From Cucumis sativus (Eukaryota; Streptophyta; Magnoliopsida; Cucurbitales; Cucurbitaceae), in assembly GCF_000004075.3 (NCBI RefSeq), contig NC_026659.2, forward strand, positions 20,788,272 to 20,852,271: a DNA stretch of 64,000 nt. Reading direction: 5' to 3'. A program made the translations under genes and the position numbers. The notes under the pieces were generated by a model, which was given only the letters and a program-made list of their open reading frames with translations, made no database searches and was not told the origin of the DNA. Shown here one piece after another: positions 7,055-45,470 of this stretch (positions within the stretch are counted from its first letter, which is position 1; the number at the start of each line of letters is the position of its first letter).

Positions 7055-7429
7055 TTTGGTGGAAGGTTAAGTTATATGCAGAAGTTTAACATTAAATTTT
7101 CAATTAAGTAGAGCTTGAAATAAATAAATAAATAAGAATAAAAGCATTGCATGTTTATATATATGGTAAGGTTTTGATTTCAAAGATGTGTATATTATAT
7201 GTCATAAGTTGGGTAAGGCGTTACTAAAGGCATATGTATATAGTAAGATAATAATAAATGCATGCAAATGCCAACAAATATTTTTCTACATTAATTTTCA
7301 TCACAAATCAAACTAAAATAACTTTATTAAACAACAATTTCCCTTTTTAACTGCCTAACAAAAAGATTCCTTGACGTTTTAAAAAAGGTATATATATATA
7401 TGGCAAGGTAATTATAATTTATAAGAATT

Positions 7430-7615
7430 CATTTTTATAAATGATAAAATGTAGCAAAAATTTTATATTGACGGATAGGTATTGATAGACTAAACATGAA
7501 TAAAAATCTATCAATGTCTATTAGTGTCTATCGTTAATAAAATTTCAAAATTTGTTGTATTTTGTAAATATTGGATCATTTTGTTATTTTTGAAAAAAAA
7601 GATCAATTTATAATA
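7430..7615. repeat. Dispersed palindromic repeat (AATAGCAAA...TTTGCTATTTT family)
   Basis: The element begins near TGTAGCAAAAATTT. It contains ATTGATAGAC...TCTATCAATG arms and ends AAATATTGGATCATTTTGTTATTTTTG. Relatives lie at about 8850-8975, 23400-23620, 26405-26500, 30830-31010 and 56165-56230. The internal TATCAATGATAGA-like arms are self-complementary, so it resembles a MITE. Confidence 0.5.
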
Positions 7616-7689
7616 AGATATGTTGGATATAGTTACGAGAGATAATGAAATAATTTTAAAAAATTATGTTGAAAAACCTCGTACCATTC

Positions 7690-8975: not shown

Positions 8976-9104
8976 TATTGTCTAACATTTTTTATTATTT
9001 AATAAAAATTTGTATTTTAAATTTTGATTCAATGAATATGTTTTCAGAATTTACAAAGTTGAATTCGAAAATAATTTTCTAAAACAAAACCTAAAACAAC
9101 ATAG

Positions 9105-9560
9105 CTAAATTGAAATTAAGATCATATTGCATTTTTGTGGTAAGCTCTAATCCTAATGATTATTTAAAGTCACGTTTGACAAGTCTTCGTACCATCTTCG
9201 TTAATCGAACACTTTGTGTCGTCACCGATGACCTTTCATACCTTTCGAATCAAACGTTAAATGGACAATTGGATAACCCGAAGCAACAAGTCTTTACGAG
9301 TTGCATGAAAAAGTATCAAATGAGTAAAGATTCTATACAAATTGAGAAATTGTGTTGGAGTATCATTTGTCACAAATTGATGGCTTATTAGATCTTGTTG
9401 AGATTAACTTTGAAGGATTTGTAGAAGAATCCTCAACTTGGAAGTCGAGATATGGTTAATTATGTGAACTCTCTCTTGCATCTTTCGTTACAAATCAATA
9501 ATCTCACATTATATGTAATCATATACGAAGCTCGTTATGGTCCATCCATTACTTCTTAAT
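9105..9560 (+). pseudogene. Broken pectin methylesterase inhibitor (PMEI)
   Basis: The reading SSNPNDYLKS through SNQTLNGQLDN to KKYQMSKDS matches the intact PMEI at 32556-33134 closely. It has no ATG and no signal peptide: about 290 bp of promoter, leader and first ~40 codons are missing relative to copy 2. The frame then fails after SIQIEKLCWS, where about 60 bp of coding sequence is deleted. Remnants of the C-terminal half (GFVEESSTWKS-like, off frame) continue to about 9558. PMEI proteins are secreted four-helix-bundle inhibitors of pectin methylesterase; this copy cannot encode one. Confidence 0.85.
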
Positions 9561-10016: not shown

Positions 10017-11322
10017 CTAAAAACCAGCTCTAAATGGTATGCCAGTTTGAGGTAACCATTGAGTCCCATTAATAAATATTTCAACAGTAAAAGTTGCAAC
10101 TTCTTTTGCGTTATTTAACACATGATAACCAGGCCAATTAACCCTTTGAGAAGTGTTGGCTCCTCCACCACTGTTATTGTATTCTGCATAATACAATAAA
10201 TTCTCTGGCACTCCCGGCCACTCCAACCATCCTTTAGGTTGAACCACATTGTCAAGAAATGAATCAATGAAAACAACCATTGAGTACATTCTCCATGGTC
10301 GTCCAAGAAACACTGTTACCTTGTCCTTACTTGATGCTATCTCTGGCGACACAGTCACTTTGCAGTTTTGGAAGATGAAGCCGCTCAGAGCACTTAAACT
10401 TGGTTTCGATTGTGCTGTTACGGTAATTTGAACGTCAAATAATCGAGCGTATATATTACAATCTTGGAATACAACAAGCCCGTTTCCAAAAATGAAGTCG
10501 ACGCTTCCATAGATATCACATTCTTTGAAGAACTGGGGAAGTGCTCCAGCATAGAGAGTATCTTGATAACCCAAAAACACACACTTGTAGTAAGCTGTGT
10601 GTTTTGCTTGGTCAAGAACAGCAATTGCTTGGCCTTCATTTGGTCCAGCAGTGTTTTGAAAGGTCAAGAACTGAGCCATGAAGTTTGCTCCATTTACAGC
10701 TTCCAAAATCAAACATTGTTTGAGTAATAAATTATAAAATTTACTAACCATTTGATTTTTTAAAATTAAACCTATATTTTTTTTCTTCAACTTCTTACCT
10801 GTTGTTTTCTTTAAGAGAGTTTAATTTTTAGTCAAGTGTTTGAAAACGAATGATTTTTTTAAATAAAACAAGAAAATGAAAGGTAAAATGGTGTTTCTGT
10901 ATAGATCTAATTTTTAAAAGTTAAAAACAAAAAAAATATGATTACCAAATAAGTTCTTGTTAAAATGAGGGTCAGGATAGTTGAAGCTTACTGAGAGTCG
11001 CAGAAGATGCCGTGGAGGACCCAGTGCCATTACTTCGATTGTTAACGATGATGGTAGTAGAAGCATCATCTCCAATTAAAGCAATACAAGTTTTCTCATA
11101 TGGAACTTCAATAATCTCCTTGTAAGTTCCAGGTTTTACATGAATGTAAAATCTTGTTGTACTAAAATTGGGTGCTGCTGCTATAGCATCGTTAATCTTA
11201 ACAAAATTTCCTGTACCATCTAAAGACACTGTGAAATTGAAAATAAAGCAATCAGAGAACTCAACAATAACAACAACTAACAAATACACTATAAAGAGCA
11301 TTTTAAGTGTGGATATTGTCAT
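10017..11322 (-). CDS. Pectin methylesterase (pectinesterase), secreted
   Basis: Two exons: 11322-10992 and 10699-10017, with donor A|GTAAGC and acceptor TTGGAAG|C; phases agree, giving 337 residues. The ATG at 11322 is chosen because the frame upstream offers only TTG. The N-terminus (MTISTLKMLFIVYLLVVVIV) is a signal peptide. The catalytic domain starts almost at once (FTVSLDGTGNFVKINDAI), so there is no PMEI-like pro-region. Family motifs follow in order: FQNTAGPNEGQA, GYQDTLYA with catalytic Gln/Asp, [13 protein letters not shown] with the second catalytic Asp, ITVTAQ, LGRPW with the substrate-binding Arg, and a C-terminal WLPQTGIPF. The enzyme de-esterifies homogalacturonan in the cell wall. 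It lies tail to tail with the PMEI remnant. The usual LR after QAVA is replaced by VL. Its duplicate at 33.6-34.0 kb is broken. Confidence 0.92.
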
Positions 11323-11410: not shown

Positions 11411-11449
11411 GAGAATGGATGCTTCATTAAAAATTCATTCGGTTTAATA

Positions 11450-12610
11450 CTAATTAATGTAGTAAACTAAAATACATCTTTAAAAGGAAAAACAAGGCTA
11501 GATCGAGGATTTATGCATGCAATCAATGGATACATTTTTCTTGATTTAAATCATCAAAATTAATGATCAATATGTCATTAAACAGTATTTTTCTATTGAA
11601 TTTGGTTCATTATTATTAAAATAAATTAACTATTATGTGTTAAGAATACTAATTATTTTTCACAACAGTTTACTAATTACGTATGTTTACTTACCATTTT
11701 CTCCTCTAAATGTTCTTTTTAATTGAAATTATTGCCCCCATTTCGTGGTTTTTCTGTTGCCTCTTTTTAAAACGCTATGGAAGAAAGGCAGAAAAAATCT
11801 CAGCTTTTTTTTTTTGCATAAAATGCATTTAATATTTTCCCCATTTTTTTCTTAACTTAACAATTTGATCTTTTCTCTATTTATATTTTACTTGAACTCA
11901 CATTTCTTCTCCATTTACCCAATTTCAGTCCTCTCTTGCACATTTCTTCTCCATTTTTTTAGATTCTAATAACTCGTTTTTACTATTGTTCACCATCTCC
12001 ATTTTGCTGTCAATTTTCACTAGATTTTTGTCTCTCATTTATTGTTGTTTGTAATCACAATATATGTATAGTTTGTGTATCACTATTACTTTAGCATAAT
12101 GTAATACATATATTTGGTCGATATGTCTATAAAAAATTTACAAATACATATCAATGGTAAGGTTATAATGACGCACAAACTATATATATATATTTGGAGG
12201 ACAAAACTGCATACAGTATATATGGAAAATACAGTTCGCTTTATATACATGTGTGTTGAAAAAGGGTATATGGCAGGATAATAATAATGCACACTATTTT
12301 ACTTTATTGAGAACATAAGAATTTGATTTTTCTTGTTTAAAATTAACATACTAAAACAAAGAAAAAAATACCTTAAAAAAGGAGGAAAAGACAAAAACAG
12401 TTGAACTCCTCTTTGTGGCTCTCTTCCATCCAAATGGATGGATGGCATTCTCGGAGTTAAAATAAAAAGAGTTTACAGTTCTTTTAACTTAAAATATCTA
12501 AATGGTAAATATGGAAATAACATAAAAGGGGTTTTTTTAAAAAAAATATAATCAGCAAAATATTTACACAACAATTTTGAAAAGGAAAAAACTCACATCG
12601 ACACATATCT
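11450..12610. other. AT-rich stretch, no gene seen
   Basis: Pyrimidine-rich and TATATA-type DNA. No supported exon on either strand. Confidence 0.5.
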
Positions 12611-12616
12611 TTACTT

Positions 12617-13185
12617 TACAAGAAATATTAGTTACGATAGCATAAAAAAAATGCTATTGTTGATTTTCGATAGCGTTTTCGAGATGCTGTTGTAGCTGAT
12701 GTTATTAAAAGTCCATGACTTTTCATAGCATTTTTACAACGTTGTGTAAAACGCTATAATATGTCTCTATTGATAACACATATATGATACTATAAATGTT
12801 TTTTATCCCGTGAAAAAAATGCTAATGAAAGTTGGATAGCGTTTTTTTATTGCATTGAAAAAATCGTTATCAAAATGTTTCAATAGCATTTTCAATAACA
12901 TTAGAAAAATGCTATAAAAGACATTTTATAGCGTTTTTTTTATTGTGTTCGAAAAACGTTATCAAAACGTTTTAATAGCTATAGAGACATATTATAAAAG
13001 AGTTTTAATAACATTGAAAAAATACTATCAAAATGTTTCAATAGTGTTTTAATAACATTGGAAAAATGTTATAAAAGAGTTTTTGTAGCGATTTTTATTG
13101 CATTCGAAAAAGTGTTATCAAAATCATTCAATAGATATTTTAACAACATTGAAAAAATGCTATAAACCATTTTTTTTGTAGAGCT
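12617..13185. mobile_element. Non-autonomous TIR element with GCTATAAAA subrepeats
   Basis: The left end TTACAAGAAATATTAGTTAC and the inverted right end CTACAAAAAAAATGGTTTAT resemble each other. The body alternates modules like AAAATGCTATAAAAG and ATAGCGTTTTTTTATTG, in direct and inverted orientation, about six times. It resembles a passive CACTA derivative. No transposase frame. Confidence 0.5.
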
Positions 13186-13189
13186 ATTA

Positions 13190-14480
13190 ACAATATAAAA
13201 ATTGATATATTATAGCTTTAATTCATTGTTATGAAATGTTTCATGATATTGAAAAAGTATCATAAAAAATGTTATAACAATAGAAATACACCATAAGAGA
13301 TTAGATATGTCATTGAAGGTCTTTTATTTTTATTAGCATTATTTCTTGTAATGGAAAAAATTTATAAATACCCCATTTTTACACACAAATTTTATTGTCG
13401 ATCGACGCTCTATAACATTCTTTGTTATAATACAAACATAACTATAATTAATCTAATAGCACCTATCCAATATTATTATTGTAAAATCAAATTATTATCA
13501 TATAGATATTTATAGATCAAGCTGTAATTTTCCGTACAAAGAAGGTATAGTTCACATTCATCCAAATCTACGATCATAACTACAACCAAAATCTCAAATT
13601 TATAACATATAAAAAAAGCATTATATACATCCAACAAAGTCCTTAGCTACTCGAACAAGTAAATTCTTAATTCAAATAAAATGACTTCATATATATAATC
13701 CCAAAATTTTGATAGGATAAAAAAGGATGTTTAAATTGTAGCAATATCAGAATTATCCCACATATGTGTATTGCTCCAATGTTTTCTCCACACATCAATC
13801 ACCTAACAAAAAATAAAAAGAAATATTATTATCCAACTCTAACAATAAATTAGTTAAAGAACTAAATAAATACCTAATTCACAAAGTAACTAAGTGATTC
13901 AATTCCAACATTCATGATTCATGATTCATGACCTTGGTGTGGAATTGTTTGATAGAGTTTAGGTTGGTTTCTGCATAGTCAACACCATCGATATTTCTTG
14001 TTCAGAGTGCTTTGAACGCTTGAAGAAAGGCTTTCAACATCGAAAACTTTGGACATTAATATTTCTTCTAAATCCATATTTCACAATTAAGAATCACATA
14101 TGCCCTGTACCAAAAAACAAATGTGAATGTCAAGATTGTCACATAATGCGAAAAACAATGGTCAGTGGTCATAATGGGAGAAGGTCAAGGACCTAAAATA
14201 CAGATAAGGACACAACTACTAATACCAAATTTGGGATTATTTGTAAGGGTGTAAAGAGTTTTGAGAAGTTTTTTAAAAAGATGGGATTTAGGACAAATAA
14301 GCTATGAAAAGTTTATATTGCCCTTCAATTAAAAAAATCCTTAAAATCAACTTTTTGCTATTATTCTCCTTTTCAAAACGTAGCCGACTTCAACTCTTCT
14401 CTTTTCTCAGTCGTCGTCACCATCGCCGTTTTCTTCACTGCCGCTAATTGTTCAAACCCCCGTCACTACAACAAAAGTCA
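13190..14480. other. AT-rich stretch, no gene seen
   Basis: Includes a short triple of ATTCATG near 13912-13931. The 14390-14465 part (TCGTCGTCACCATCGCCG) is GC-richer and leader-like, but no coding exon follows that I can support. Confidence 0.4.
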
Positions 14481-14492
14481 CATTTTATAACA

Positions 14493-14593
14493 TTTTTCGT
14501 TCTTAATTTGTTTAGGCTTTAGAATCAAATTTTCCGTTCTTAATTTGTTTAGGTTTTAGAATCAAATTTTCCGTTCTTAATTTGTTTAGGTTT
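14493..14593 (+). repeat. 37-bp tandem repeat, about 2.8 copies
   Basis: Unit TTTTCCGTTCTTAATTTGTT plus TAGGTTTTAGAATCAAA, repeated nearly exactly. It follows the leader-like GC-richer stretch. Confidence 0.9.
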
Positions 14594-14599
14594 CAGTTT

Positions 14600-15415
14600 T
14601 TCGACGATCGTCGGATGATTTCTTCTCTGTTTAGGTGATTTATTTTCCTCATTTCCAGTGATTTCGGTTAGTACTTCCTCAATTTTCCTTTCTTTTCATC
14701 GTGTTTGAAGAAGATTGGGATTGTGGGTGTGGCAAATGGTTAGGGAAAATTTTCATTTTGGGTTGCATTTGGACCGGTATTCTGTAGTTTTTCATTAGGG
14801 TTATGGTGCAATGTGCGAGAAGAGATTGGGTGAAAATGTGACAACTCAATCGGAGGTTAGTTTAGACATGGGTACAGAAAAGAAAGAACACAATCATCAT
14901 GGAGCCTGACTTTGTATGATTTTGTTGTTTGTTTGTATTGCTTTTAATATTTATACAGAAAATCAACATACAATAGTATTCTACTTGGAATGACATCTTG
15001 TTGAAATAGATTGCGTTCTGAATATTTGCTTGGCATTGAGGAGAAGCGAAGGCAGATGAATTCCCATTTTTGTATTTGATTTAAGTGATAAAAAAAGAGA
15101 GTTTAAATGGTTGTCTCTCAGAAATTGATGTAAAAATGAAGCTTCAAAGCTTGAATGAGAATTTGTTGATATTTGGTTTGGACTTATAATGCTAATGAAG
15201 AGGAGATTAGCACCAAAGATTACGAAATGGGTGACAAAGAGGACCCCTCTATCAAATGCTCACATGGGATTGCTCAATTGGTTGAAGCTTTATCATTTTT
15301 AAATAATTTTATCTATTCATTTTGTCAAGTTTTGGCAAATATTATAAGTGTAGTTTTCAAATTATCCCAATTTGAAGTACTTTAAGCTTGGTATATACTA
15401 GCTCAATTAATTTTT
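14600..15415 (+). other. Unassigned stretch, possibly remnants of a transcribed region
   Basis: Contains some protein-like open segments (MGDKEDPSIKCSHGIAQLVE near 15227-15286, plus strand) and splice-like GTTAG/CAG sites. I could not link them into a gene or recognise a family. Confidence 0.2.
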
Positions 15416-15419
15416 TGCG

Positions 15420-15950
15420 TGTTTATTAAATTTATTAGGCCCTTCAATTTTATCTCGCACGCATCTTGCAACCATCTCGCAGCATCTAGCACCTATCTTG
15501 CACGTTTCAAACTTTCACTACGAGTTTCACAATCAAATTACTATCCCTCCTAAGTCATTTAGAGTGAGTTTGTGCATGTTTAGTAAGTTTATTAGGTTGG
15601 ATATTTTTATTTTACACGCATCTCGCAACCATCTCGGTCGCACGTTTCAAACTTTCACTATGAGTTTCACAATCAAATTGCTACCCCTCATAAGTCATTT
15701 AGAGTGATTTTGTGCATGTTTAGCAAGTTTATTAGGTTGGATGTCTTATTCTGCACGCATCTCGCAACCATCTCTCACCTATCTCGCACGTTTCAAACTT
15801 TCACTATGAGTTTCACAATCAAATTGCTACCCCTCCTAAGTCATTTAGAGTGATTTTATACATATTTAGTAAGTTTATTAGGTCGGATGTTTTATTTCGC
15901 ACACATCTCGCACATTTCAAACTTTCACTAATAGTTTCAAAATCAACTTT
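15420..15950 (+). repeat. Minisatellite of about 140-160 bp, 3.7 copies
   Basis: Repeats of GCACGCATCTCGCAACCATC, then CACGTTTCAAACTTTCACTA, then CCTAAGTCATTTAGAGTG and GTTTAGTAAGTTTATTAGG. Successive copies of the CGCATCTCGC module begin near 15459, 15617, 15756 and 15901. Divergence is greatest in the last, incomplete unit. Confidence 0.9.
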
Positions 15951-16834
15951 ATAAGGGGAGGAAAAAGAGATAGAGACATAATAGAGAAGGATGAAAATGA
16001 AAGAATTGTCTTTACGTTTGTGAGAAGAAGAATGTGTTGATGGATGGAGAAAATAAAGGTGCCATGGAAGGGAAGGAAGAGATAAAAGAAGAAAATGAGA
16101 GAGGAAATGAAAGGAAAGATAAAGGAAAAATTAAAAAGAGCAATTTAGACAATTCATTCTCAATTTGTCCTAAAGATCAACATTTTCAAAATCAATCCCA
16201 AAAATCTTTTATCCCTCTTTTAGCCTATTTTTGGTAATTTCCCAAGAAATATGAACTTAATCTGTTGTATGAAAACTCAGTCGTCCTTAGCGCAACTCTT
16301 TAATTCCCTCATTTAGTTTTCATCTATCAATATTCTATCCGTAAAATAAATAACACACAACATAACAACAATGTAGCTTCTCAGAGCTAACAAACCAAAC
16401 ATTACGTTAACGCAAAAAACATATATTCACACAAAAGCAAAACCTCACTTGAAAATAAACAAAAGAACACCCAAAACTCATAACAATAACCCATCAATAA
16501 AAAAAGAGAGAAACAATACAAGTTCCAGACATTCCAAACAAACAAAAACATAATTAAGTAAACAAAACAACGAGTGATGAACAAGATAATGCTGGAAAAC
16601 ATATCTAAGGGCAAAAGCAAACCCAAGACGGATTCAAAAGAACATCATATTAAAATGAGTGTGAAGAACAGATTAACAAAAATTTAGAGCATTAGAGCAT
16701 TAAGCATGAAACCAAAAGTTAAATTTAGTGGAGAAATTCATACATGCAGTCAAATAAAACTGAACAGACAACCATTAAATGACACATTTGCAAATATTTT
16801 CATTTCATGATATGAAAATCAACAGTATATATCA

Positions 16835-17414
16835 TCAATCGGAAGAAAACCAGCCGTCATTTTGCAATGTCAATACCTTGCAGCATGTGCTCATTTGAAC
16901 ATAGCCCGATCCATAGTTCAAATCTTTTGATATAACTAATATATCAACTAGACTGACAAAAGAAAACATTTAATTTATTCACTATGTTAAGGATTGTGAT
17001 TACAGAAAAATGTATGTCAACCTACGTTAAACTAATCTCATGTCAGCAATTTTACTAAAAACAACAATAACAATACTAATAATAATGATAAATGAAGTGG
17101 AAGCATACCAACAGTGGCTTGCTTGTAGATTTGGTCGCCCATTTTTAGAAGACCATCCCAACTCAGGAAAACATATGGGTTTTGATCCAACATCTAAAAG
17201 TGAAAAGATTAGAAGTGGAATCATTTTTATAAGCCTGAGTATCGATCAATTCAAATGCAATTTAACACTAATGAATTTACTCTTGTCTAAAATGAAGACA
17301 TACTGAACAAGGAGATGCGTGATAACAACATTGAAATCATGAAGTCTAAAAGGAAAGAAATGCAAAACTTGCCTTCAACTCAGAAGGGGATAATTGACGA
17401 TTGACATATTCCAA
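16835..17414 (-). CDS. Candidate 3' exons of an unrecognised gene
   Basis: Three minus-strand pieces join in phase: 17414-17373 (LEYVNRQLSPSELK), 17193-17109 (MLDQNPYVFLSWDGLLKMGD then QIYKQAT) and 16923-16835 (VDLNYGSGYVQMSTCCK on to WFSSD and TGA). Acceptors are GCTAG|, a strong TTTTCACTTTTAG| and TCAAAAG|. Donors are AG|GCAAGT (a GC-AG intron with otherwise perfect consensus) and G|GTATGC. The phase agreement and protein-like reading argue for a real gene end. The family is unknown to me and upstream exons were not found. The 16.3-16.8 kb AT-rich DNA would be its 3' UTR. Confidence 0.35.
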
Positions 17415-17781
17415 CTAGCTGCAGAAGGGGGAGAGTGGAAATGATTTAGTGTTTTTCTCACAACAAAAGATTTAAAAATTCTCTATTGAAGAATATTCCC
17501 TTGGGATGTTAAGTAGATTCCTTTGAATGGATGGAAACCGCTATAGTCCTTGGTCTTTTAAGTTTCATGTTATAAGACTTTGGCCTGATTTCAGGTAGCT
17601 AATAGCTATGGTCCCAAATATAAGGGTCCTGACTTCGTGGATCATAATTTAGCTTAGAGTTCATAGGGCCCTAACTTGACTCCATTAGTGATCACCTTAG
17701 GCATACAAGTAAAAGCTAAGTCGTTAACTTTCTATGTGGAAGGCCTAATTAGAAGACCAGTAAATAATGGTATTGTGAAAT

Positions 17782-17928
17782 TTCGACAAAGAAGCAGAAA
17801 AAGAGGCAGTAGACAAACTCACAGTGGCAGAGGCATACGTCGATCCAGAGCCTTTAATTAAAATAAGTCCATCTCGAGAAGTCTATCCATACCCTGTACA
17901 TATGCAGAAAAGAATAAGATTACAATAA
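17782..17928 (+). other. Isolated coding-like segment
   Basis: A 48-codon plus-strand stretch reads FDKEAEKEAVDKLTVAEAYV, DPEPLIKISPSREVYPYPV and on to a TAA, with natural-looking composition. A TGA lies directly before it in frame, and no acceptor is visible. It may be a gene or transposon fragment; no family recognised. Confidence 0.18.
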
Positions 17929-19497
17929 GACTTCTAAGAAGATGTTACTACATCAAGTATCTCCCGTGGTCAGATCAGATAACTTCGGCTTGTCTCAAGA
18001 CTTCATGGCATGCTGATGGATATTCTATTCAAGATTCATCTTAATTGGAATGGTTTTATTCTTCTGGTATAATCTCGCTACTTCAATGTCTTTACTTCAC
18101 TTACTTTTTCAGCAAAATTAGAAGATTGGATAGTGTATAGTGTATATCTTCCTTTGATATCTTAATCACAAGAAATTTTTTTTGTAACTAGCCTTTTCAT
18201 GATATTGTGAACAATTGGAAAATTCTTCTTTAGTTTCTTGCAAGCGAGTGTCTTCTCAGTCCAAGGCTGATTCCTTTCTCTCTATTTCTTTAAATACAAA
18301 TAGGTTTTGTTCTCGATCCACAAAGGGGAAAAGAAATGCACCAAAAATGGAGCACAAAAATTTGATAGGAAAAAAATCCCAAGGGGCAGAGAAAGACTTG
18401 TATTTTCCATGCTCACTAACTTAAAACGTTAGACTTTTCAATAGAAATTTTCAATAATTTGTTTTCGGTCCTGTTACCATCTCAATGGATCTATAGGCTT
18501 GAAAAAAACCCTCCATGATTTTGTGTGCACATGAAAGACAAGATTGATATCAGTAAATTCAATAGATATGTTGTGAAAGTGATTTCAAAATAAATTTTAT
18601 ATCAACTTTAGCAATAGAGTGACCTAAAAAAATAGAAATAATAGATACCAAGAGGATACCTTCTCAAGGCTAGCCACGTATGATTTTGAATCAACATTCA
18701 CAATGTCATCAACAAACTTTGACTTTCAAAATAAACTAAAAACTGTATGTCACTTGACTCTCACACTCACCTATAAAGCTTCTAAAAAGTGCATATACAT
18801 CCATGGCTCCACCTTGTCATCGTCAAATATCAAATATCATGAGGGGTATTTTGGAAATCTGCTTACACATTTCCTAAAAGTTATATTCCTTTTTGCTGTT
18901 ATTCAATCACAAAGGGAAAGGAAAACCAGGGAGAGATTATGATATGCCAATTTGCATAAAAGTGAACAACTAACCCCATGACATGAAATCCCACACCAGT
19001 ATAAATAGACAACAATGGGAGCTTTAAACTCATTAACAGAACAAAGAAAAAAAAAACCCAAGCCCCATTGTCCAATAAAATATCTGGATGAATTTTAAAG
19101 ACTCATTCTTGCTCCTAATGATTAAACATGATACAATTCTAACATCCAAGGGATGCAAAAAAATTTTAGGAATACAAGGGATCATCAAAACCAAAAAATG
19201 AACAAATAACTAACAAAAAAATAAAAAAAAAATTATCACTGATATCAAAGAAACCATAGCCAACAGTGATAGAGGTTGAAAACTATAGGAGATATCATGG
19301 GTTACTCCATCTTCAAAGAACTAACATAATGATAGAAATCAATGATTTTCACACGCAGATAGCAAAAACATGTTGTAAGGCTTTACCTACACAAAATGAA
19401 GATGCTAAACAATGAATATATTGATTCCAGACTTAAAGATTGGGGGATTGATTATGCTATTAGATCTCATAAACCAAAAAACATAAAGAAACGTTAT
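17929..19497. other. No gene supported
   Basis: Mixed AT-rich sequence with short open frames on both strands that lack family signatures or linkable splice sites. Confidence 0.4.
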
Positions 19498-21856: not shown

Positions 21857-21989
21857 CTCTGCTCCGTTCGGATAAACGATTTTCTCACTGAAGCTGAAGA
21901 TAGGGGCCGCTACATAAGCAGATGCTTCGTCATAATATCTGAGTTTTTGTGTCAAATCATAAATGTTATTTTAGTCCTTATTAGCATAT

Positions 21990-31690: not shown

Positions 31691-32471
31691 ATAAAATTTG
31701 AAAAAACGAAAATCACGTAATAAATATATTAGCCAACTAATACATATAATATAAGTATGTCACAACACTAATATACATAACTGAGACAAAATAAAAATAA
31801 AAAATTAATGTAAAAAATAAAACAAAATCATTTTGAATCATATTTAACTCAAAATACACCTCGAAAAAAGTAAAAAAAAAATCACAAATGAAGTTAAATT
31901 ACTCCAATCAACAACCATTATATTATATTTCATATTGCAATTATTGTCTTATTTATATTTTAAAATTAAGATTAAGACAGAAAGAATAAATAATTTTTCT
32001 AGCATAAGAATAAAGAAAAAATTAGGACCTCAAAAAATGGTAAAATAAATAAATAATAAATAGGACATTAAAAAGATGAAGTTAAATAAGTCATTCAATG
32101 ATAGTTTATGAATAATAACAAATTTAAGATAAAAAAGTAAAATTTTTGATATATTTGCAAAATTCTAAAACAATGTGCTAAAATGCTATTCTATGTAATT
32201 TCCGACATATACGTATGTATCGTATTTTCTAAGAAAATGAATTGGGTTTATTTCCTAAAATTTTTTATTTAATAAAATTTTAAAATCTTGATACAATCAA
32301 AAAATAAAAACGTTGTTTTTAGAATTTGAAAACTATTTTGTAAAACAAAATTTAAAACGCGTGTCAAACACATATTCGTTGGATTTGAGTAAATTTTAAA
32401 AACATAAAACAAAATTTGATTTTCGTCCTTATTTAGAATGAAATTGAAATTTATGGTAACATTATTATGTG

Positions 32472-32555: not shown

Positions 32556-33134
32556 ATGAATCAATCACTTCTTGTTTTCTTTGTTACTCTTCTTATTCTA
32601 TATCCAAAGATGATTGTAGGAAATCATAATTTCATTCAACACACATGCAACAAAGTTGAATCTGATTTGAAGGATCTTTGCATTTCTGTGGTAAGTTCTA
32701 ACCCTAATGATTATTTAAAGTCAAATTTGACAGGTCTTCTCACCATCTTCGTCAATCAAACGCTTGGTGTTGTCATCGATGACCAATTGTACCTTTCAAA
32801 TCAAACGTCAAATGGACAATTGGATAATCGGACGCAACAAATCTTTACGATCTGCATGATGCAGTATCAAATGAGTAAAGATTCTTTACAAGCTGTGTTA
32901 GAAGAGCAGTTGTTGAAGCAACAAATTAGTGGAGATTTGGATTTTGATTTGACACAAATTGTTAACTATTTACAGCTTTGTGAGATTAGTTTCCAAGGAT
33001 TTGTAGAAGAACCCTCAACTTGGAAGTCGTTGTATGATTATGTGAGCTCTCTCTTAGATCTTTCATTAGAAATCACTAATCTCATTAAATGTAATCATAT
33101 ACAAGCTTGTTTTGGCCAGGCCATTATTTCTTAA
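32556..33134 (+). CDS. Pectin methylesterase / invertase inhibitor family protein
   Basis: A single exon of 192 residues, the normal size for the family. Residues 1-22 (MNQSLLVFFVTLLILYPKMI) form a signal peptide for export to the apoplast. The N-terminal helical hairpin has the paired cysteines HTCNKVESDLKDLC; later cysteines (LQLCEISF, IKCNHIQAC) fit the second disulfide region. An NxT-type glycosylation site is seen in NQTSNGQLDN. Such proteins block pectin methylesterase or invertase; the neighbour context (tail to tail with a PME remnant, and an intact PME in copy 1) favours PME. The CDS is intact, with a TATA box upstream. Which target enzyme it binds cannot be decided from sequence alone. 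Confidence 0.85.
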   Translation: MNQSLLVFFVTLLILYPKMIVGNHNFIQHTCNKVESDLKDLCISVVSSNPNDYLKSNLTGLLTIFVNQTLGVVIDDQLYLSNQTSNGQLDNRTQQIFTICMMQYQMSKDSLQAVLEEQLLKQQISGDLDFDLTQIVNYLQLCEISFQGFVEEPSTWKSLYDYVSSLLDLSLEITNLIKCNHIQACFGQAIIS

Positions 33135-33551
33135 TTAGTATATGTATTTCATTATATATTTGGTTTTCGTTTTATTTCATTGTAGGTGTTCCATTGTTGT
33201 CTCTTCAATCATCTGTTCTAGCTATTTTAAATTAATATGATAAAATAAATGGTTTGCGTTTACTTATTCAAATTTACAACCTGTTTAATTTGAAATAACT
33301 CTTCAAATGCTTGCTTAATTATATATAAATGTCATCCGAAACAAGTTGCCTTAAATAGTTTGCGTGGCTACATGTTTCTTAAAATCTTTACTTGTATATT
33401 CACATGTATTAATTGTCATTTGGGGTTTCTGCTTGTTTATACCTCTACTAGTTTCCATATATTATTTCACCAATTGAATCATGGTTCAAAACGTTTTGAG
33501 TTGACACAGAAATGAGAATAAAATGGTTATGGAAATGAAAATTTATTTACA

Positions 33552-34014
33552 AAGTTGCAACTTCTCTTGCATTATCTAACACATGATAACCAGGCCAATT
33601 AACTCTTTGAGAAGTGTTCGCTCCTCCACCACTGTTATTGTATTCTGCATAATACAATACATTCTCTAGTACTCCATGCCACTCCAACCATCCTTTTAGG
33701 TTGAACCACATTGTCAAGAAATGAATCAATGAAAACAACTATCGAGTACATATTCCATGGTCGTCCAAGAAACATCGTTACCTTGTCCTTAGTTGATGCT
33801 ATCTTTGGCGACACAGTCACATTGTAGTTTTGGAAGATGAAGCCACTCGAACAACCTACACTCTATTTTGAATGTGCTGTTACGGTAATTTGAACGTCAA
33901 ATAATCGAGCGTATATATTACAATCTTGGAATACAGCAAACCCGTTTTCAAAAATGAAGTCGACGCTTCCATAGATATCACATTCTTTGAAGAACTGAGG
34001 AACTGATCCGGTGA
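33552..34014 (-). pseudogene. Broken pectin methylesterase
   Basis: Retains [37 protein letters not shown] and NNSGGGANTSQRVNWPGYHV, all matching the intact PME of copy 1. It is broken four ways: the N-terminal half is removed by an LTR at 34015; an in-frame TAG at 33863-33865 replaces the Gln-Ser-Lys-Pro region; one extra T in the run at 33694-33697 shifts the frame; and about 88 bp coding for the C-terminus are deleted. The Gly of DFIFGN is also changed to Glu. No function is expected. Confidence 0.92.
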
Positions 34015-35371
34015 TGTGACCTGGAGAGGTATCTAAGGATTCAAAATGCGAAAGGAGTTCATTTCTGACAAGAATTCAGATAAGTGTAAGGGAAACTTTG
34101 GCTTAGGAAGCTAGTTGATTGTAACTGTAAGTGGTTCTTCTTACCAAATGTTTTCCAAACGAAAAAGGGTTTCTAAAATGTGTTGAATCCTTAATATATT
34201 CTTATGAAACTATGATTCATATGATTCTCCATTATGCTTTTCCACCTTCATAATGTAAGTGACTTTATAAGTAGAAAAAAAAGAGTATTTGTGAATGATC
34301 TTCTAGTAGGAGGGTCGTAAAAGCATCCTCTCTGAGTCTGGTGTTGCATTATGTTGAATGCTTGAGATTAACGTTGACGTCATGTCTTGGAATGATGATT
34401 TCTGAATAATGCACAAGATTTGTTAAAGTTGAAAGAAGATGATCTCTATATTCCATGTAATATGATGTCTTATCCTTGTTGTGTGATCTAGGATAAGATG
34501 TTCTATTCTTGCAGTGTGATTTAAAATAGAATGTCTTATTCATGTTGTTTGATCTTGATTAGGATGTCTCCTACTTGTTGTGTGATCTAGTATGGGATGC
34601 CTCATCCCTACTGTGTGATCTGGTATGAGATGTCTTATACTTGCTGTGTGATCTGGCATAGGAAGACGCGTTATGCATAAGAGAATTAATGATGTTTGCT
34701 TGTGCATTGGAATTTCTCTGCATGCCTACAACTTGGTAAAATAGTGTAGTATACACTCGAGACAAGGAGAGAGTACACAAAAACGTAATTTATTGTGCAT
34801 AATAATGGACCTATAAAATAACACCTAGTAGCGAAAAGCATACTACGCGATAAAGTATGATATAGTTGATTTACATTTTGATATAGCGCCTGTTCTAAGA
34901 AATGGTTATGTGGAGATAAGGCGATTTTGATTTATTAAAAGTACTTGATAAAAGATCTAATTCACTAGGCGTTTTCGTCTAATCCTTCAAACGTTGTTTT
35001 ATTTCACCCCCGCCCCCCTCGAATTAGTGAAGGATAGTCTATCGTGCCTCATTAATGGCATCATTTTAGTATTGGCCGCCATTATCTACTATAGCATGGA
35101 GAAGCGATGTGAGTCTCAAGTCATTTTTTAGTCTACAATTCATTTTTAAAGGCACGTGTATTAAGAATCAAGTGTACACTTGCGATTTGTCTATCAATGA
35201 AGTTTTCTTATTTCATTCAAGTCCAAATTCCACGTTTAAATTTTATAGTTAAGAAGTTGTTCCGCTTACTAGACGTTCAATGTGTCATCTCGTAGGGAGA
35301 TGCACGTTAGGCAACTAAGCGGCATGCCTCCACTTGGTCGCATGGAGTGACTTTAGAGACGGGGCGTGACA
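34015..35371 (+). mobile_element. 5' LTR of a Ty3/Gypsy-type retrotransposon
   Basis: Starts TGTGACCTGGAG exactly where PME homology ends, and finishes ...GGGGCGTGACA just before a primer-binding site. Length about 1357 bp, with TG...CA ends. It contains serial GATGTCTTATAC/GTGTGATCTGGTATGAG modules (34440-34660). No 3' LTR was found in the window, so the element is truncated. Confidence 0.7.
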
Positions 35372-35373
35372 AG

Positions 35374-35386
35374 TGGTATTAGAGCA
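35374..35386 (+). other. Retrotransposon primer-binding site
   Basis: TGGTATTAGAGCA differs by one base from the site complementary to the initiator-Met tRNA 3' end used by many plant LTR elements (TGGTATCAGAGC). Confidence 0.75.
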
Positions 35387-35476
35387 TAAATTCTTGGGAT
35401 CGGTCTCAAGTAGAGTCATGCATATGGTGTCATGTATTGATAAGAACGTCTAATGTATTAATGTGATATAGGAACT

Positions 35477-36060
35477 ATAGCACCCCGAGGAAGGTCAAGA
35501 CGAGTTAGACAAGTGGCAACAAATGTTCCAGCTACTTGGAGCGCCAATAGAGCACAAGTGCAAGGCGAGGTGTCTAATAACCCACACGATTCAGTGGGGA
35601 GAAGAGCTGAGGAAGAGATGTTTGATCGTCTCCCTTAGAAGTTAGACAAAAATTCAGCATCGAGAGGCTAAAGGCGTTGGGGGCAATGACCTTTGCAGGA
35701 ACCACTAACTCGACTGACAGAGAGAAGTGGTTAAGTCTGATAGAAAAATGTTTTGGGGTGATGGACTGCCGTGAAGAAAGGAAAGTGAAATTAGCAACGC
35801 ACTTGTTGCAACATGGAGCACATGATTGGTGGATTCTCCACACAGCAAGGGCAGGCGAAGAAGGCCTCACCACGTGGGATGAATTCAGACGGGCTTTCAA
35901 AAATAAGTTCTACCCTCATTCCTTCTGTGATACGAAGAGAAGTGAGTTCATGAGTTTGGTTCAAAGCAACATGACGGTCACAAAATATGAAAAATGAGTA
36001 CCTCTGCGAGTATTCACCATGGATGATCAAACGCCGTTCAAATAAAGAATCACCGAGGAG
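35477..36060 (+). pseudogene. Ty3/Gypsy gag remnant
   Basis: Begins APRGRSRRVRQV with ATA where a start would be. It has a stop near 35636 and a frame change, then an open part (IERLKALGAMTFAG, EKWLSLIEKCFGVMDC, HDWWILHTARAG, WDEFRRAFKNKFYP) matching the plant retrotransposon gag domain with its W-W-F-Y pattern. It ends in a TGA at 35995-35997, with decayed continuation. Protease, RT and integrase are missing. The element cannot be autonomous. Confidence 0.85.
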
Positions 36061-37300: not shown

Positions 37301-37919
37301 CCAATGAACTTGAAGAACTCCAACTCTTATTCACTCCAAATTACTTTCTAACCAGAATCTTTCGCTCATCTCGAAATTAATCGGTTGTTGCTTGTGAGAC
37401 TAGTAGCTCATCTATCTTACAAGGAATATGAATTTCCTACATTTTTCCAACGTGGGATTGTCTCATCATAGGAATTTGACTGCACTAGATGGAGGCAAGA
37501 ATAACCAGAATGAACAAATGAATTAGCATTGCCTTGGAGATTACAATGAATGATTCGGAAATGTGAAAAAAGGGATGATTTTAAAATAAGACCAAAAATT
37601 ATCACAAGTCTATAAAAGGCCCCTCTAACTGAACAAATTTGATGTATAATCACCAAGAAAATGAAGTTTATGCATTTAAATCACATTTCATATGAGCTTT
37701 TTGGGTTAAAGTTCTTACGTTCTTAATTTCAGGGAACTAACATCCACTCGATTTAGTTCCCTTCTTGTGAAACCAAAGCTGATTTCTTTCCATATCTTGA
37801 GTACACGTCTGTTAAGACAGCCTTCTCCTTTATCCTTAACCTGCATTTTATTCATTACATAAAAGGAAAATTTAAGTTAGTCTTTCAAAGCATTAAATGT
37901 AAAACCATGTTCTAAACAA

Positions 37920-40900
37920 TCACTTTAAGCAGCAAGACCTTTTGGCAGATCCTGGAATTTCTGTTAATAATTTCTTCTCTCCTTTTTCCTTCGGTTGCTT
38001 TTTCTTTGAAACCTTTGTTTTTCTTTTGATTGGTGAAACTTCCCTATGAATTTCCTCTCTTCCTTGAGGAAGAATTTCTTCTAGTTCAATTTTATTTACT
38101 TCCTTTTCAGATGGTGACTGAATTGTGAACTCTGTTCTTGACTCTACGCCATTATCATCCTCCTCATGCGAATGTGATTCACTGACATAAGCCAAATCGT
38201 CTTCGATATCCTCAGTTTTTGTTCTTGTGGCTTCACTGGCTAAATCCACGTCAATGTCAACAAACTGCTCTGCTTCCTCTTCAAGAATACTTAGTCGAGA
38301 ATGATTGGTACTGCTCATTGAACTATTGCGAGCGGAACTCGAAGTTTGTCGATTCATTATTTCACATTTTATTTGCTTCTGAACCCTTCCAAACGTAAGA
38401 TACCGTCCAGAAAATGCTTGCAGAAAACTGAAGAAAATAAATGTCACTCTTTTAACCAATTTATCAAGGATTATGGATGCATGAAATGTTGTTATGTTCT
38501 AGATTAAACCTAGAAACCATTCAAAAAGATAGTGCCAAGACATGAAATGTCGATTCATTATTTCACATTTTATTTGCTTCTGAACCCTTCCAAACGTAAG
38601 ATACCGTCCAGCAAATGCTTGCAGAAAACTGAAGAAAATAAATGTCACTCTTTTAACCAATTTATCAAGGATTATGGATGCATGAAATGTTGTTATGTTC
38701 TAGATTAAACCTAGAAACCATTCAAAAAGATAGTGCCAAGACATGTAAAGATGTGGTCTTACATAGTTGATGCTTTGATGACCTCATAACAAACAAAAAA
38801 TGTAAATAGCTTCAATTTTTATTTTAATGGAAAATGACTTTCACTACAAGAAATCGGAGTTATCCCGACCATGCATGTACACGTCGGTCGTCGATGCCCC
38901 ATCTAAGGCCAACGTGGAAGTGTATAGCGTCAGAGAAAGGGAAAGTTATTATTAAAATTATAATCAATCGCTACGTATACGTGCATGGCATCGGCCATCG
39001 GTCCGTCTACAACGACGTTAGCGTTAACCACATCGGCAAAGGTTGAACCTTTAAATAATTATGACAACCTTTCCGCGATTCAAAAAAGTGGAACGTCTAT
39101 AGGCCTACCTTTTGCCGACGTAAGGGCTGACAACGTAGTGAGAAATAGTGACGTTTGAAAAGATTTTGAAAACTTTTGCATGAAGCCATAAGTGACTGCG
39201 TCGACATTACATAGAGAAAAAACGACGCCCTCACTTATGGCGTCGCAATTGTGGGGTTCTCACGACATTTTCGGGACGCCCCTATTATTAAAGTTCTATG
39301 TTCACAGAACATAGAACACAATAGAGAGAAAAGGGTAAAGAGAAAGACGAAACAAAAGAGAGAAGAGACTCCACCATCCATCGAGTCGATGCCTGCAGCC
39401 ATTGCCGTTCGTCGCCCACCGTCCTCATTCGTCGTCCACTTACTTCGTTGTCTTTATCGGTAAAAATGTTATATTTATTATTTTTTATTTCTAAATAAAT
39501 ATATATTAATATATTGTAGATTGTAGATTAGGTTGTACATATATTGTATATTGAATGTATAATTTGTAAATGGTAGATTGTATATGGCATGTGTAGATGG
39601 CTAAAAAATATTCATGAGTTGGTTTTAGTTGTACATGTGAATGTGAATCTCCATTTTATCTTCTCTGTCTCTTTTATTTTTTACATCCACATATTTATCT
39701 TCTCGTCTTTTTTAATTTTGATATCCACAATTTTCTAGTTATATTTTTTCACGTATTCTAGCGTTTAGTTTAGTGTTTAGATTGTTTTAGTTATTAGTTT
39801 TAGATTTTAGATTTCAAATTAGTTTTAGTATTTAGATTTTCATTTAAGTCGTAGGTTTTAATTTACATTCGAATTTAGTGTTGTTCGGATTTAAGATTGA
39901 AGTTGAATTTGAAATTGAATTTGGAGTTGAATCTGTACGTTTTTTATTGAATTTTTCACGATACTTACATCTATCTATTGTCCTAAAGTAAGCATTTTAT
40001 TAACATATCTTGACATTGAATTATATAAATTGTATGTATAGATTGTATATTGTATGTACGTTGATATTAAATTTGTACATTTCAGAATTACAATCTGCTA
40101 TTGAAAATGAAGAGTATGAGAAGGCTATAGAAGAGCTTAGGTGCAAGAATTTAAAACTCGAATATGCAATGGACAAGCTCAACATCAAGAAATCAGACTT
40201 ATATTAGAAAGTCAAATAGTAACAGCTAGTATGGTCATAGGACATGAGCAGAATGTCCAAAGAGGGAAGTTAAACATTATTACGAGGTGCATCGAGGGAA
40301 ATATGAGGTTGCTTCAAACAGAAACGACCTTTACTTAATATGCAAGTGGAGAACTTTCTATGACTTCGGTTCTCGATCATGTCATTTACTGCTCCTCTCT
40401 TCCCAATCAATTTTTTGGAACCACCAAAGCAAAGGTCGTTTCTGTTTGAAGCAACCTCGTATTTCCCTCGACGCACCTCATAATAATGTTCAACTTCCAT
40501 CTTTGCAATTCTGCCCATATCCCTATTATCATATTAGCTAAAGTCATGCTGAGACAATGTGCAGAAGTTGGGAAAACTGGCGTCGGTGCTTAGAATTATG
40601 TTTTTATTTTTTTTTGTTTTTACTTCTTATTATTCATGTAATTTCGAAACCTACAAACGTGTAGTTTTTTAATATTTGAATTAATTTTAATATAAATTTA
40701 ATTTGGTATTTAAATATTTTTTATTAATTTTACACTAATTGTGTTTAGAATTTGATTGAGTTTAAGTCGAATTCGAACCCAACACCAAAAAAAAAATATT
40801 ATAAAAATGTTTCTCGACCCACAAAACACGTCGGACATGGACGCATTACCGACGCGTTGACCACGTCAGACAATGCTTCCCCGACGTCGTACGCCAGTCG

Positions 40901-43900
40901 ATCATAGTCCCCATCAGGCAAACAATTTTGCCGAAGTCGTCGTGTTGCACGTCGGCTTTGCCTATGACGACGCAGTATTGCCGACGCTCGGACCGACGTG
41001 GGTTTCTGCGCCAGAATAGCCATTCCCAATGCCTTTTGTGAATTTGGCCGACACAAAACAAACAAGATCTTGCTAGAATCTAGACTTTAGAGTCATTCTT
41101 ACTAAAACAAATCTAGACTCTACCGCCATTCTTACTAAAAAGGTGGGGAAAGAAAGAACTCTAGAAGGCAAAGAGAGAAGGCTTCCCATTTATTAGCAAT
41201 TTCCCAATAAAGGACATCTACAAGCCAACAAAATTGTTTTAAATGAAAAAAACTAGTAATATGCCTTTTTGTATTTCCCCTACTTTTCTACAAGAAAATA
41301 TAAAAAAAAACCATCGATAGTGAAAGGAGAATATGATAGAACCAGATATATTGATAATAACATATATAACGAAAATGCTTGTGTTCCAGGTACTTGAACC
41401 CTCCCAACATAACTCTCAAGCCCTAATTCATATTCCAAAATATGGCTTATCTTCTCCACTCCCCTTTCCCTCTATTTACAACCAACTTCCCTAACAAACT
41501 ACTCCACTGATTACTAGCATACCTTTAATATCCCTTTGACGTCTTTCCTATCAGAATGTCCTTCACGCACCTTTTATCTTTTTTGGTGCCACATGTGAGC
41601 TGAGGTACCAACTCATTTTTTATGCATTGTTCCTTTGCATCTAGTTTCTGACAGACTACTTTTTAAGCTTTTGGACGATCATTTCAATTCGCCAACAATA
41701 TTTTTGATCTTCTAGCACCATTTCTGATCAGTCATCCTTTTGGTGGTACTAAGAAGACAATTTGATTGGCAGGTAAACTTTCTTTTGAAATTTTTGCGTC
41801 GAGCAAGACGTCTTTTCGAAGTCTCTTTTTCCGCTTTTGATTGTTTTATGGATTTAGTTTTTTCTTTTTTTTTCTTCTTTTTTCGCCTTTGTGTGCAAAA
41901 CTAAGCACCCATTTACTCACTTCAGCTTATCTAACTTAATCTCCAAATTGTAGGCTTCTACTGTAGTCATCTTTTGGTGTACATTCATCAGAAAATGTTT
42001 TTATTATAAAAAAAGGGTGGTGAAATAAGAATCAGACAATAACCATTCAAGAGTTTTGAAATAAGAATGTACTTCACCAATTTTAATACGGCCTTGCTAC
42101 CTTTTTCATCTAAATAAGTTTGGTATTTTGAAGCTAGCTTGCTTATGAAAAAGATTTGAACTAAATTTCTTTGAGTTCTACAATTTCTTCTCATAAACAT
42201 ACCTTAAGGCATCTCCTTCAGATTTGCAATCAACAAATGCAAAACCCTTGCAGACTGGATCCCTAGTCTTTTTGTTTCCAATGACTGCAGGAGTTATATT
42301 GATTATTCCAGGAAACCCTTTAAAAGCCACGACCAGGTCTCTGTGAATGTTCTTTTTTCTAGGAAGGTTGATAATGCGTACACAAACTCCAGTACTAACA
42401 ATTTCTGGAGCTGAAGAAATGCATGATACTCAAGGTTAGATCAAACTAGAATAGACAAGTAGAAAAATTAGAATGAAAAAGGTTCATTAATAACTACGCA
42501 TTTTACAAGTCTAGAGTGGATTTCATACAACAGTGTGGCTAAATCTCAGACAGGATGCGATCAGAAGAAATTCTCTTTCACTATTATTGAGTTATAATAG
42601 TATTGTAGCATCTCTAGTTTTGGGAAAACTCAACTTTTACACAATGAACTTTGCAACATATATCAATTTACCCTAAAATTTCAATTTCATAGAATTGCAC
42701 CTTAAACTTTAACAATTGTCCCATTCTATACCAACTTTAAAATGTAATGTTACTGTCTTAAACTTGAAAGAAGTATTTTGTTAAGTAAAGTATTTTCCTC
42801 ACTCATAGCCCCCAATTAGTCCTAAGAAATATGTCTGGTGAAAAAGCAATCAGATGTCAAAAAAAAGTATTTTAATATTTTTAAATTTGTGGGTCTGCGT
42901 AGAACTACGACGGTTGATTTTGTGCATTAACAATATTTAGTTTTGCATAAAACGCGATTCTAATTGAAATTAGAGAGTTTCTGCAGCTTTCTTATCAGCG
43001 CATAATTTTTAAGCTAATGTGAAGAAATGTGTCACGCAACCAAATTTTGATACCCCTCCCAGACCAAATCATTTCTAGCAAGAGGTGATAGAAAACCCTT
43101 CTAAGCTATATTTTGAATGGGTTGACATCAAGATTTCAAAGAACTAAGGGGGTTCCATCTTTAACTAAGTAAAAGTAGAACCAGAACTTCAAATAAATTG
43201 ATTTGGCTGGAATAAGGAAGCTGATTTCAAATTACAACAATTGGTCATGATTGAACCCTCAATTTTAGCATAGGCTAACGTCCACAAACAAGATGATAGC
43301 GTGCAAGAAATAAAGAATAGGCATTGGGGGCCAATATGAAGCAAGAAAATGGCTTATTTACTTCTAAACCATTGTGCTCACTTTCAACATTGGGATTCTG
43401 CACATTCAGCAGTAGAGCAAAACTACTTTTTGGGGACAAGTTGTACATGTAGAATAGTGTACTAGCCCATAAAACTAGTACACCAAGAATTCCCGGTGGC
43501 CCCATCAGTGGACACACAAAGTGCCACAAGATTTTGATTAGATTGGGACAACGTATGCTTGTTTCCTCCAACTGTGCACAAAACTTCACTCTTTCATGTA
43601 TCTTTGAAAACGAATCCTTCACATATCTCCAAAATGATATGATATTCTATGTTTTGGTCATACGTCCTCACGATTTTACTTTGGAAACCACTTGAAAGAT
43701 AGCATACCAAAAAAAAAATTGTCCTCACTTATATACCAGTGGATCTCTACCTTCTCTCTGCAAACCTAACAGTCCTCCCTTCATCTGTCCCACTCCAAAT
43801 CACCATCCAAAGTTCGCTCTAATCAAGGCCCAGAGTAAACCCAGCTACCACAGATCAAATTGTACAATCTACTTGGTATCTACCACTATCGCACCCTTAA

Positions 43901-44762
43901 TCTCCTCCGCTCAAACAAACACATACTCCTATCAACTTCACTTGATTAGATAAAGCTCTACTTGTCTACTGCTTCTTAGACACTTTATCCGAAATAGAGA
44001 TTCATTTCCAAAGCTCACAAATTTTATTTGATGTCCAAGAATGTCACTGACATAGCTAGGTTCACTTTAGACCATAGTGTTTTAATTGATAAGAGCAACG
44101 GACCGTTATCCACCAATGATATAATCTATCTGGGCAAATGTCTACACCCACAAATTTAATTTACAGAAAAAACAACAACAATAACAAAAACTATGAGCTA
44201 AACAATAACAAACATTTCGATTCAGCAGCAGTTTGCAGAATCAGAGAATAAAGAGTTAAAAATTGAGAGATTGAGGCTGACCTGCTATCTCTACGACATT
44301 TCTACTAGAGTTGGGATTAGAAGAAGATTGATCCTTGAGCTTATTGATATTAGCAGCTTGAGCTTCCCTAATCTGCTCCATTTCTTGTAGCAAGTTGTCT
44401 TCAATCGAAGTATCATACACCTTCCCTTCTCCAAATCCACGAGGCCTCGCCGCATGCCACTCTTTCGTGTTCTTTAACGGCAAAAGAATATCATCCTCGT
44501 CCTGAAAATTATCCTCACCCTCATCGAAAAATTCATCAAAGCCAATGTCGGAATCACTTGGCTCAGTGAGGGCAATGCCACCTTTCCCCAACCTCTTCAC
44601 CGCAAAAACAGGAAAGCCCATTGGTCCAGAGGCCTGGATAAGAGACAAGTTGAGGTGGGGGGGGCGGAATTTTGTGGAAATTGAAGAGTTGTAATGGCAA
44701 CTGTGTTGCAGCAACGGGCAAATCGTGGTGAAAGGGCAGTGAAGGGGCGTAGAATCGAACAT
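37920..44762 (-). CDS. RRM-domain RNA-binding protein, probably plastid-targeted (RBD1-like)
   Basis: Three exons in phase: 44762-44282, 42410-42203 and 38427-37920 (398 residues). Splice sites are GCAG|GTCAG, TTCTTCAG|CTCC, TTAAG|GTATG and TTCTTCAG|TTTT. The Ser/Thr-rich N-terminus (MFDSTPLHCPFTTICPLLQH) resembles a chloroplast transit peptide. Next come an acidic stretch (FDEFFDEGEDNFQDEDD) and a conserved-looking RGFGEGKVYDTSIEDNLLQE segment. Exons 2-3 encode one RRM: RNP2 VRIINL and RNP1 CKGFAFVD, closing with YLTFGRVQKQIKCE. The tail is acidic, then Lys-rich (KRKTKVSKKKQPKEKGEKK). From memory the layout resembles Arabidopsis RBD1 (At1g70200), a chloroplast 23S rRNA processing factor; this needs an alignment. 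Intron 2 hosts a CACTA-like element and a duplicated acceptor. Head to head with tRNA-Val. Confidence 0.82.
38344..38745. repeat. 201-bp tandem duplication spanning the exon 3 acceptor
   Basis: Units 38344-38544 and 38545-38745 are nearly identical; one visible difference is CCAGAAAATG against CCAGCAAATG. Each holds the branch/acceptor region (TTCTTCAG) and the first ~80 bp of exon 3, on the minus strand. The acceptor at 38629-38628 therefore precedes the one at 38428-38427. Confidence 0.95.
39293..39317. repeat. Perfect short hairpin
   Basis: GTTCTATGTTC and GAACATAGAAC flank a 3-nt loop (ACA), an 11-bp perfect stem inside the CACTA-like element. Confidence 0.9.
40248..40514. repeat. Long inverted repeat, 85-bp arms
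   Basis: Arms 40248-40332 and 40431-40514 are inverted copies with under ten mismatches, e.g. GAGGTTGCTTCAAACAGAAA against TTTCTGTTTGAAGCAACCTC. The loop is about 98 bp. Each arm also reads as protein (RRGKYEVASNRNDL), so it looks like an inverted duplication of a transposon coding segment. Confidence 0.9.
41011..42202. other. Rest of RRM-gene intron 2
   Basis: Unremarkable intronic DNA with some leader-like CT-rich parts. No separate gene could be supported. Confidence 0.5.
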
Positions 44763-45470
44763 CTCTGCTCCGTTCGGATAAACGATTTTCTCACTGAAGC
44801 TGAAGATAGGGGCCGCTACATAAGCAGATGCTTCGTCATAATATCTGAGTTTTTGTGTCAAATCATAAATGTTATTTTAGTCCTTATGAACATATGGTGT
44901 CGTGGTGTAGTTGGTTATCACGTCAGTCTAACTCACTGAAGGTCTCCGGTTCGAGTCCGGGCGACGCCATTTTTTCTATAACTTTTTTTAAAAAATTGTT
45001 TTTTACTCTTAATCAATAGTGAATTTTTTCTCTTTTGTTTTTTTTATTGAGAAGAACTTTCCACCTTCTTTAATTGTGTGGGCATGAACACTTTTCAATA
45101 AAAATTATTTTTTTATTGTGAAAAAAATGGTAATTTTTTTTTTTCGTATTTATATTTTTCAATACAAACTAATAATTGAATAGTACGTGTCTCAACCAAA
45201 ATTTAGGTTAATTGACATTCAAATGTACTAATTGTCACGTGGTTTATAATTTGAATTACAATGTATCCAATTATTTTACTAAAAATTTGAAAACTATGCA
45301 TGTTGTATAATTTTTTAGCATATATAGTTTGTTTCCTTATGAAAGCTAATTAAAAATGGCATGATTGTGTTATCCAATATGCAATGTAATTGGTGATCTG
45401 GGTCATTTGTTGTTACAATATTGTTGTATTCTTAATGAATTTGTGTGATTGGAAACTAAATGAAGTCATT
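42723..45470. repeat. Segmental duplication copy 2, RRM/tRNA arm
   Basis: Counterpart of 19498-23372 in the same orientation. It lacks the SINE-like and CGATCG-rich insertions of copy 1. From 43640 to 45080 it is almost identical to copy 1. Confidence 0.93.
44896..44969 (+). tRNA. tRNA-Val (AAC), variant anticodon loop
   Basis: Identical to the tRNA at 21990-22063 except for one base: loop CTAACTC instead of CTAACAC. That puts T at position 37, directly 3' of the AAC anticodon, where tRNAs nearly always have a purine. All stems remain paired. A T6 terminator follows at once (CCATTTTTTC). The gene lies 133 bp from the RRM-gene ATG, on the other strand. Confidence 0.88.

Follow-up and report, generated by a model that had tools for sequence, protein, structure and literature searches.

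A probable single tandem segmental duplication with complementary gene losses on cucumber chromosome 5

Fractionation, or reciprocal gene loss, is usually described for whole-genome duplications. The cucumber locus analyzed here resembles such cases in the complementary retention of genes between two duplicated segments, but it is a local tandem segment with only three protein genes. Closer in scale is the cucumber femaleness (F) locus, a tandem repeat of 30.2 kb in which a chimeric gene sits at a junction (PMC7072070). Both are cucumber tandem segmental duplications of similar size. The F locus is recent, polymorphic and functional, whereas the C5 segment is old (12% diverged), decayed and has no known variation. 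Return to single copy is given as the most common fate of duplicates in PMC9252495, and in each of the three cucumber pairs one member is broken or deleted; what differs here is that the mixed pattern is legible within a single short tandem segment and that repeats are present at two of the breaks. A survey of the cucumber PME and PMEI families counts 52 PME genes, 33 PMEI genes and a single tandem pair (PMC12073293). Literature searches with queries other than gene identifiers found no description of this locus.

The window, a stretch of 64,000 nucleotides (C5:20788272-20852271), was compared with itself and with a cucumber assembly of 226.6 Mb in 88 contigs. Self-comparison reveals two colinear copies on the plus strand, at 7024-23352 and 30401-45461, which are the outer limits of detectable homology and bracket 16.3 and 15.1 kb, respectively. 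In the left arm (7024-10547 versus 30401-34009), the main blocks pair 7024-7599 with 30401-31007 (offset 23.38 kb), 9127-10006 with 32678-33556 (23.55 kb) and 10090-10547 with 33551-34009 (23.46 kb). In the right arm (19501-23352 versus 42729-45461), they pair 19877-20096 with 42822-43045 (22.95 kb), 20231-22199 with 43107-45095 (22.88 kb) and 23014-23352 with 45137-45461 (22.12 kb). The E values of these six blocks, from 1e-62 to 0, exclude chance, and three minor plus-strand blocks are consistent with their order: 8759 with 31106 (E 2e-15, offset 22.35 kb), 8963 with 32236 (3e-7, 23.27 kb) and 19501 with 42729 (1e-12, 23.23 kb). An initial annotation had proposed a tandem duplication of about 23 kb. 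The tandem duplication is well supported, but 23 kb is the offset between the copies (22.1-23.6 kb), and each bracketed copy measures only 15-16 kb. The segment middles, about 9 kb each (10548-19500 and 34010-42728), share no homology at E 1e-4 in the self-comparison. The 7.0-kb spacer (23353-30400) has no counterpart to the right of 45461 within the window; it contains no recognizable copy junction, and no mediating repeat was found either. These absences weigh against a single tandem duplication; erosion can explain that of the junction.

The colinear plus-strand blocks bear out the gene order that had been proposed for both copies, namely PMEI(+), PME(-), RRM gene(-) and tRNA-Val(+), and the gene models agree with the assignment of PMEI and the RRM gene to copy 2 and of PME and the standard tRNA to copy 1. 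PMEI in copy 2 (32559..33134, plus strand) consists of one open exon, whose start is predicted to resemble a signal peptide, and has a Pfam PMEI match of 43 bits. The copy 1 remnant (9083..9547, plus strand; C5:20797354-20797818) has three stops over residues 27-188 and an unrecognizable 5' part. A relative in Citrullus is 74% identical to copy 2 PMEI over 97%; no melon PMEI was found among four proteins from 63 candidates. For PME, it is copy 1 that is open, with two exons in frame and GT-AG borders on the minus strand: exon 1 (10992..11322; Pfam Pectinesterase, 67 bits) runs from the ATG, its position counted from the translation, to the GT donor, and exon 2 spans 10017..10699 (260.8 bits including flanking intron codons). 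In copy 2, a fragment at 33551..34009 on the minus strand carries one in-frame stop and is missing both ends, lacking the last 24 codons and the 5' half.

The RRM gene of copy 2, on the minus strand, keeps an open frame across four exons, which have GT-AG borders. Exons 1 and 2 lie in reading frames at 44256..44876 and 42181..42414, exon 3 is at 37923..38432 and exon 4 at 37756..37842; the first half of the RRM is in exon 2, and the second half is in exon 3 with the C-terminal part. Copy 1 retains only part of intron 1 and exon 1 (21321..21970, minus strand), in which a C run has lost 1 bp compared with copy 2, while exons 2-4 are exclusive to copy 2. Exon 2 has no second copy genome-wide (one of one candidate scored) and is 60-94% identical to its relatives. 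The RRM_1 Pfam score on the joined exons, 16.6 bits, is below the curated cut-off of 20.7, and the gene is thus named from its homologues (P0023 and P0028 carry PF00076). A 201-bp tandem repeat (99%) at 38347-38745 contains the start of exon 3, so that the splice acceptor is present twice. The first acceptor, if used, meets a stop, and the open frame is therefore no proof of a sound gene. The tRNA-Val(AAC) genes, both on the plus strand, differ at 1 of 76 bases: copy 1 (21989..22064, 60.9 bits) has A at position 37 and copy 2 (44895..44970, 55.2 bits) has T at this position of the anticodon loop. The genome holds 18 exact copies of the 35-base tRNA core, and the T of copy 2 departs from all 18.

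Judging from sequence comparison, this layout very probably goes back to one tandem segmental duplication, after which the copies suffered complementary losses, since they share order and orientation, their arms are equally diverged outside one tract, and no third full copy appears among the candidates scored. Mismatches amount to 200/1783 in the left arm (11.2%, summed over block rows with the forced alignment 7600-9126 excluded) and to 138/1104 (12.5%) in the right arm outside a tract at 20721-22199. A third full copy of the right arm was not found genome-wide, with 32 of 32 candidates scored, and none of the outer left segment was found among the 40 of 221 candidates that were scored. The two parallel diagonals of similar divergence that had been predicted for a dot plot are thus present as colinear blocks, but their divergence is similar only outside that tract. 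Unequal synonymous divergence, previously named as an argument against one duplication, does appear in the raw values for PMEI (dN 0.169, dS 0.239), PME (dN 0.075, dS 0.104) and RRM exon 1 (dS 0.010); a single duplication survives this discrepancy solely through the restriction of the low value to the sharp-edged tract.

The same inequality between the left-arm genes and RRM exon 1 is what two independent duplications would offer, in which the PMEI-PME and RRM-tRNA blocks were copied separately and ended up in the same order; the PME block has in fact moved alone to contigs C4, C47 and C48. However, divergence of the right arm outside the tract matches that of the left, and separate tandem duplications would give A-A-B-B, while A-B-A-B in one orientation is the product of a single A-B duplication, so that independent events appear very improbable. 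Even harder to credit is transduplication, in which a transposable element, not a tandem duplication, would have carried the left block of copy 2. Related inverted repeats at 27788-28329 and 34116-34777 do flank this block, but these LTR-like fragments belong to a dispersed family that occurs in many places where the block is absent, and the colinear right arm would be left without account. With a single duplication, an unequal exchange or replication error on chromosome 5 would have doubled the PMEI(+)-PME(-)-RRM(-)-tRNA-Val(+) segment, with the junctions no longer recognizable.

Ectopic gene conversion between tandem paralogues is a known process, recognizable as a sharply bounded low-divergence tract between otherwise diverged copies. 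The tract shared with copy 2 at 20721..22199 has this appearance, differing in that it links a gene with a truncated relic and includes a tRNA gene. It has 18 mismatches in 1459 positions (1.2%) against 92/724 in the rest of the same arm, and its lnL gain is 63.2, whereas 100 permutations, run on a coarser grid, reached at most 9.3. Part of RRM intron 1, exon 1, upstream DNA and the tRNA all fall within the tract, whose edges are sharp and whose divergence is far below that of neighboring sequence. The left edge lies inside intron 1, where adjacent stretches have 57/484 (20231-20744) and 10/570 (20745-21320) mismatches. Genome-wide, with 32 of 32 candidates scored, the tract has only two full copies; the remaining 31 matches cover just the tRNA or part of it. 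It is most simply explained as an ectopic conversion tract. As no third copy covers it, this explanation comes from a single sequence pair, which gives room to a second recent local copying, purifying selection or assembly error; the right edge of the tract, moreover, falls where copy 1 has an insertion (22200-23013). These alternatives seem unlikely, given that the divergence jump within an intron is not accounted for by selection acting on a truncated gene, and polishing errors would hardly span 1.46 kb between copies 12% apart at the edges. Conversion of about 1.46 kb would then have re-homogenized RRM exon 1 with the intron 1 sequence next to it, the DNA upstream and the tRNA much later than the duplication. 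Divergence in the left arm is also uneven, at 6-17% per block, with a changepoint near 9639 (lnL gain 11.1 versus a maximum of 8.7 in 500 permutations). Conversion was set aside there because copy 1 and the C4 paralogue share the same slow and fast stretches, which favors local rate.

The PME paralogues are at C4:10681484-10683528, C47:204204-206235 and C48:61590-63627, with 93-94% identity, and one of them is annotated as a 337-residue protein (P0032). The PME block as a whole (window 9361-12393) has copies at C4:10681484-10684497, C47:204204-207205 and C48:61590-64606. These are 98-99% alike across 5 kb, and C47 and C48 may be redundant contigs. Over window 9361-10547, they are 2-9% diverged from copy 1 and 7-18% from copy 2; the coding comparison of copy 1 with C4 gives dN 0.017 and dS 0.061. 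They were rejected as further copies of the whole segment because the RRM-tRNA arm is absent there. An isolated PME exon-intron fragment at C5:21098536-21099046 corresponds to window 10585-11100, beginning near the copy 2 break; its exon and intron sequence are both about 15% diverged (18/112, 42/275 and 15/109). That the 5' half of copy 2 PME moved there, 277 kb downstream, is an unproven lead, given this divergence and the flanks, which for 1.5 kb on either side have no match in the window.

Dispersed repeats fill the middle of each copy and make up most of the spacer. In copy 1, they form a nest at 12606..18713. In copy 2, an LTR-retrotransposon-like fragment (34018..35997, plus strand), itself a dispersed repeat with a gag frame (Retrotrans_gag, 45.1 bits), begins at most 10 bp from the PME break, and further repeats lie at about 36.7-37.2 kb and at 38869..41055, the latter within intron 2 of the RRM gene. 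Repeat counts for both middles are lower bounds, with 40 candidates scored per search. A dispersed repeat of about 1 kb, found in at least 36 places, interrupts the left arm of copy 2 (31210..32190). It may be that an LTR-retrotransposon-like element inserted in PME exon 2 of copy 2 and that a later deletion, suggested by what is missing, took the rest of the element together with the PME 5' half. In copy 1, the repeat nest would have accompanied the loss of RRM exons 2-4, while PMEI presumably decayed through stops and indels. Two of the three protein-gene losses are deletions adjoining repeats.

Each copy retains a gene that the other has lost, PME in copy 1 and both PMEI and the RRM gene in copy 2. 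The further claim that the copies together preserve one of each gene does not extend to the genome, in which PME has its paralogues on C4, C47 and C48 and the tRNA core its 18 occurrences. Only for the RRM gene and PMEI does the pair hold the sole close copies; the next-best PMEI match is 38% identical. If one member of each of three pairs is lost at random, a mixed pattern has a probability of 6/8, and the complementary pattern is therefore expected by chance. Apart from the ordinary reversion of duplicates to single copy, no selection for complementarity need be invoked, and the locus is a clear yet fairly ordinary case of duplicated DNA decay. As it stands, it illustrates known processes; its value lies in a compact, datable stretch of 45 kb where the marks of duplication, repeat-associated deletion, point decay and late conversion are each distinguishable.

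A comparison with melon bears on the age of the duplication. In a tree of 176 PME codons, copy 2 groups with melon P0033 (SH-aLRT 92.8, bootstrap 94) and copy 1 with C4 (36.1/64), and the AU test gives p 0.048 for the two alternatives. With other models or outgroups, the AU p value of the second of these trees is 0.034, 0.047 and 0.042, but it rises to 0.092 when only the nearest outgroups are used; neither the KH nor the SH test rejects the alternatives (0.08-0.14). At the 22 PME sites that differ between the copies, 5 pair copy 2 and melon against copy 1 and C4, while 13 unite copy 1, C4 and melon to the exclusion of copy 2, mostly through changes private to the dead copy 2 gene. A PMEI tree built to root the duplication does not resolve it (support 46.2/43). 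The PME tree hints weakly that the duplication predates the cucumber-melon split. That it is older than the split and was resolved in opposite ways, with cucumber keeping copy 1 PME and melon the copy 2 orthologue, is a tentative and somewhat doubtful extension. Divergent resolution of duplicates is a proposed source of hybrid incompatibility, and if this extension is true, the locus would be a direct test case for such resolution between sister species. The split between C. hystrix and cucumber has been put at 4.5 million years (PMC7917098).

Apart from dispersed-repeat matches, which make up most of it, the spacer between the copies contains an insert at 23909-25200 with 99% identity to contig C85. 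This contig (1,555,935 bases) has the size of the main cucumber mitochondrial chromosome, and the insert is probably a recent nuclear insertion of mitochondrial DNA. Elsewhere on C5, nine match pairs between 7.63-8.15 and 8.39-8.90 Mb have a near-constant offset of 753.35-753.40 kb and equal or nearly equal scores, which suggests that a large region was duplicated recently or that the assembly contains it twice. At C1:5649569-5651521, another PME (63% identity) is located beside convergently oriented PMEI fragments, and PME-PMEI linkage thus recurs in the cucumber genome.
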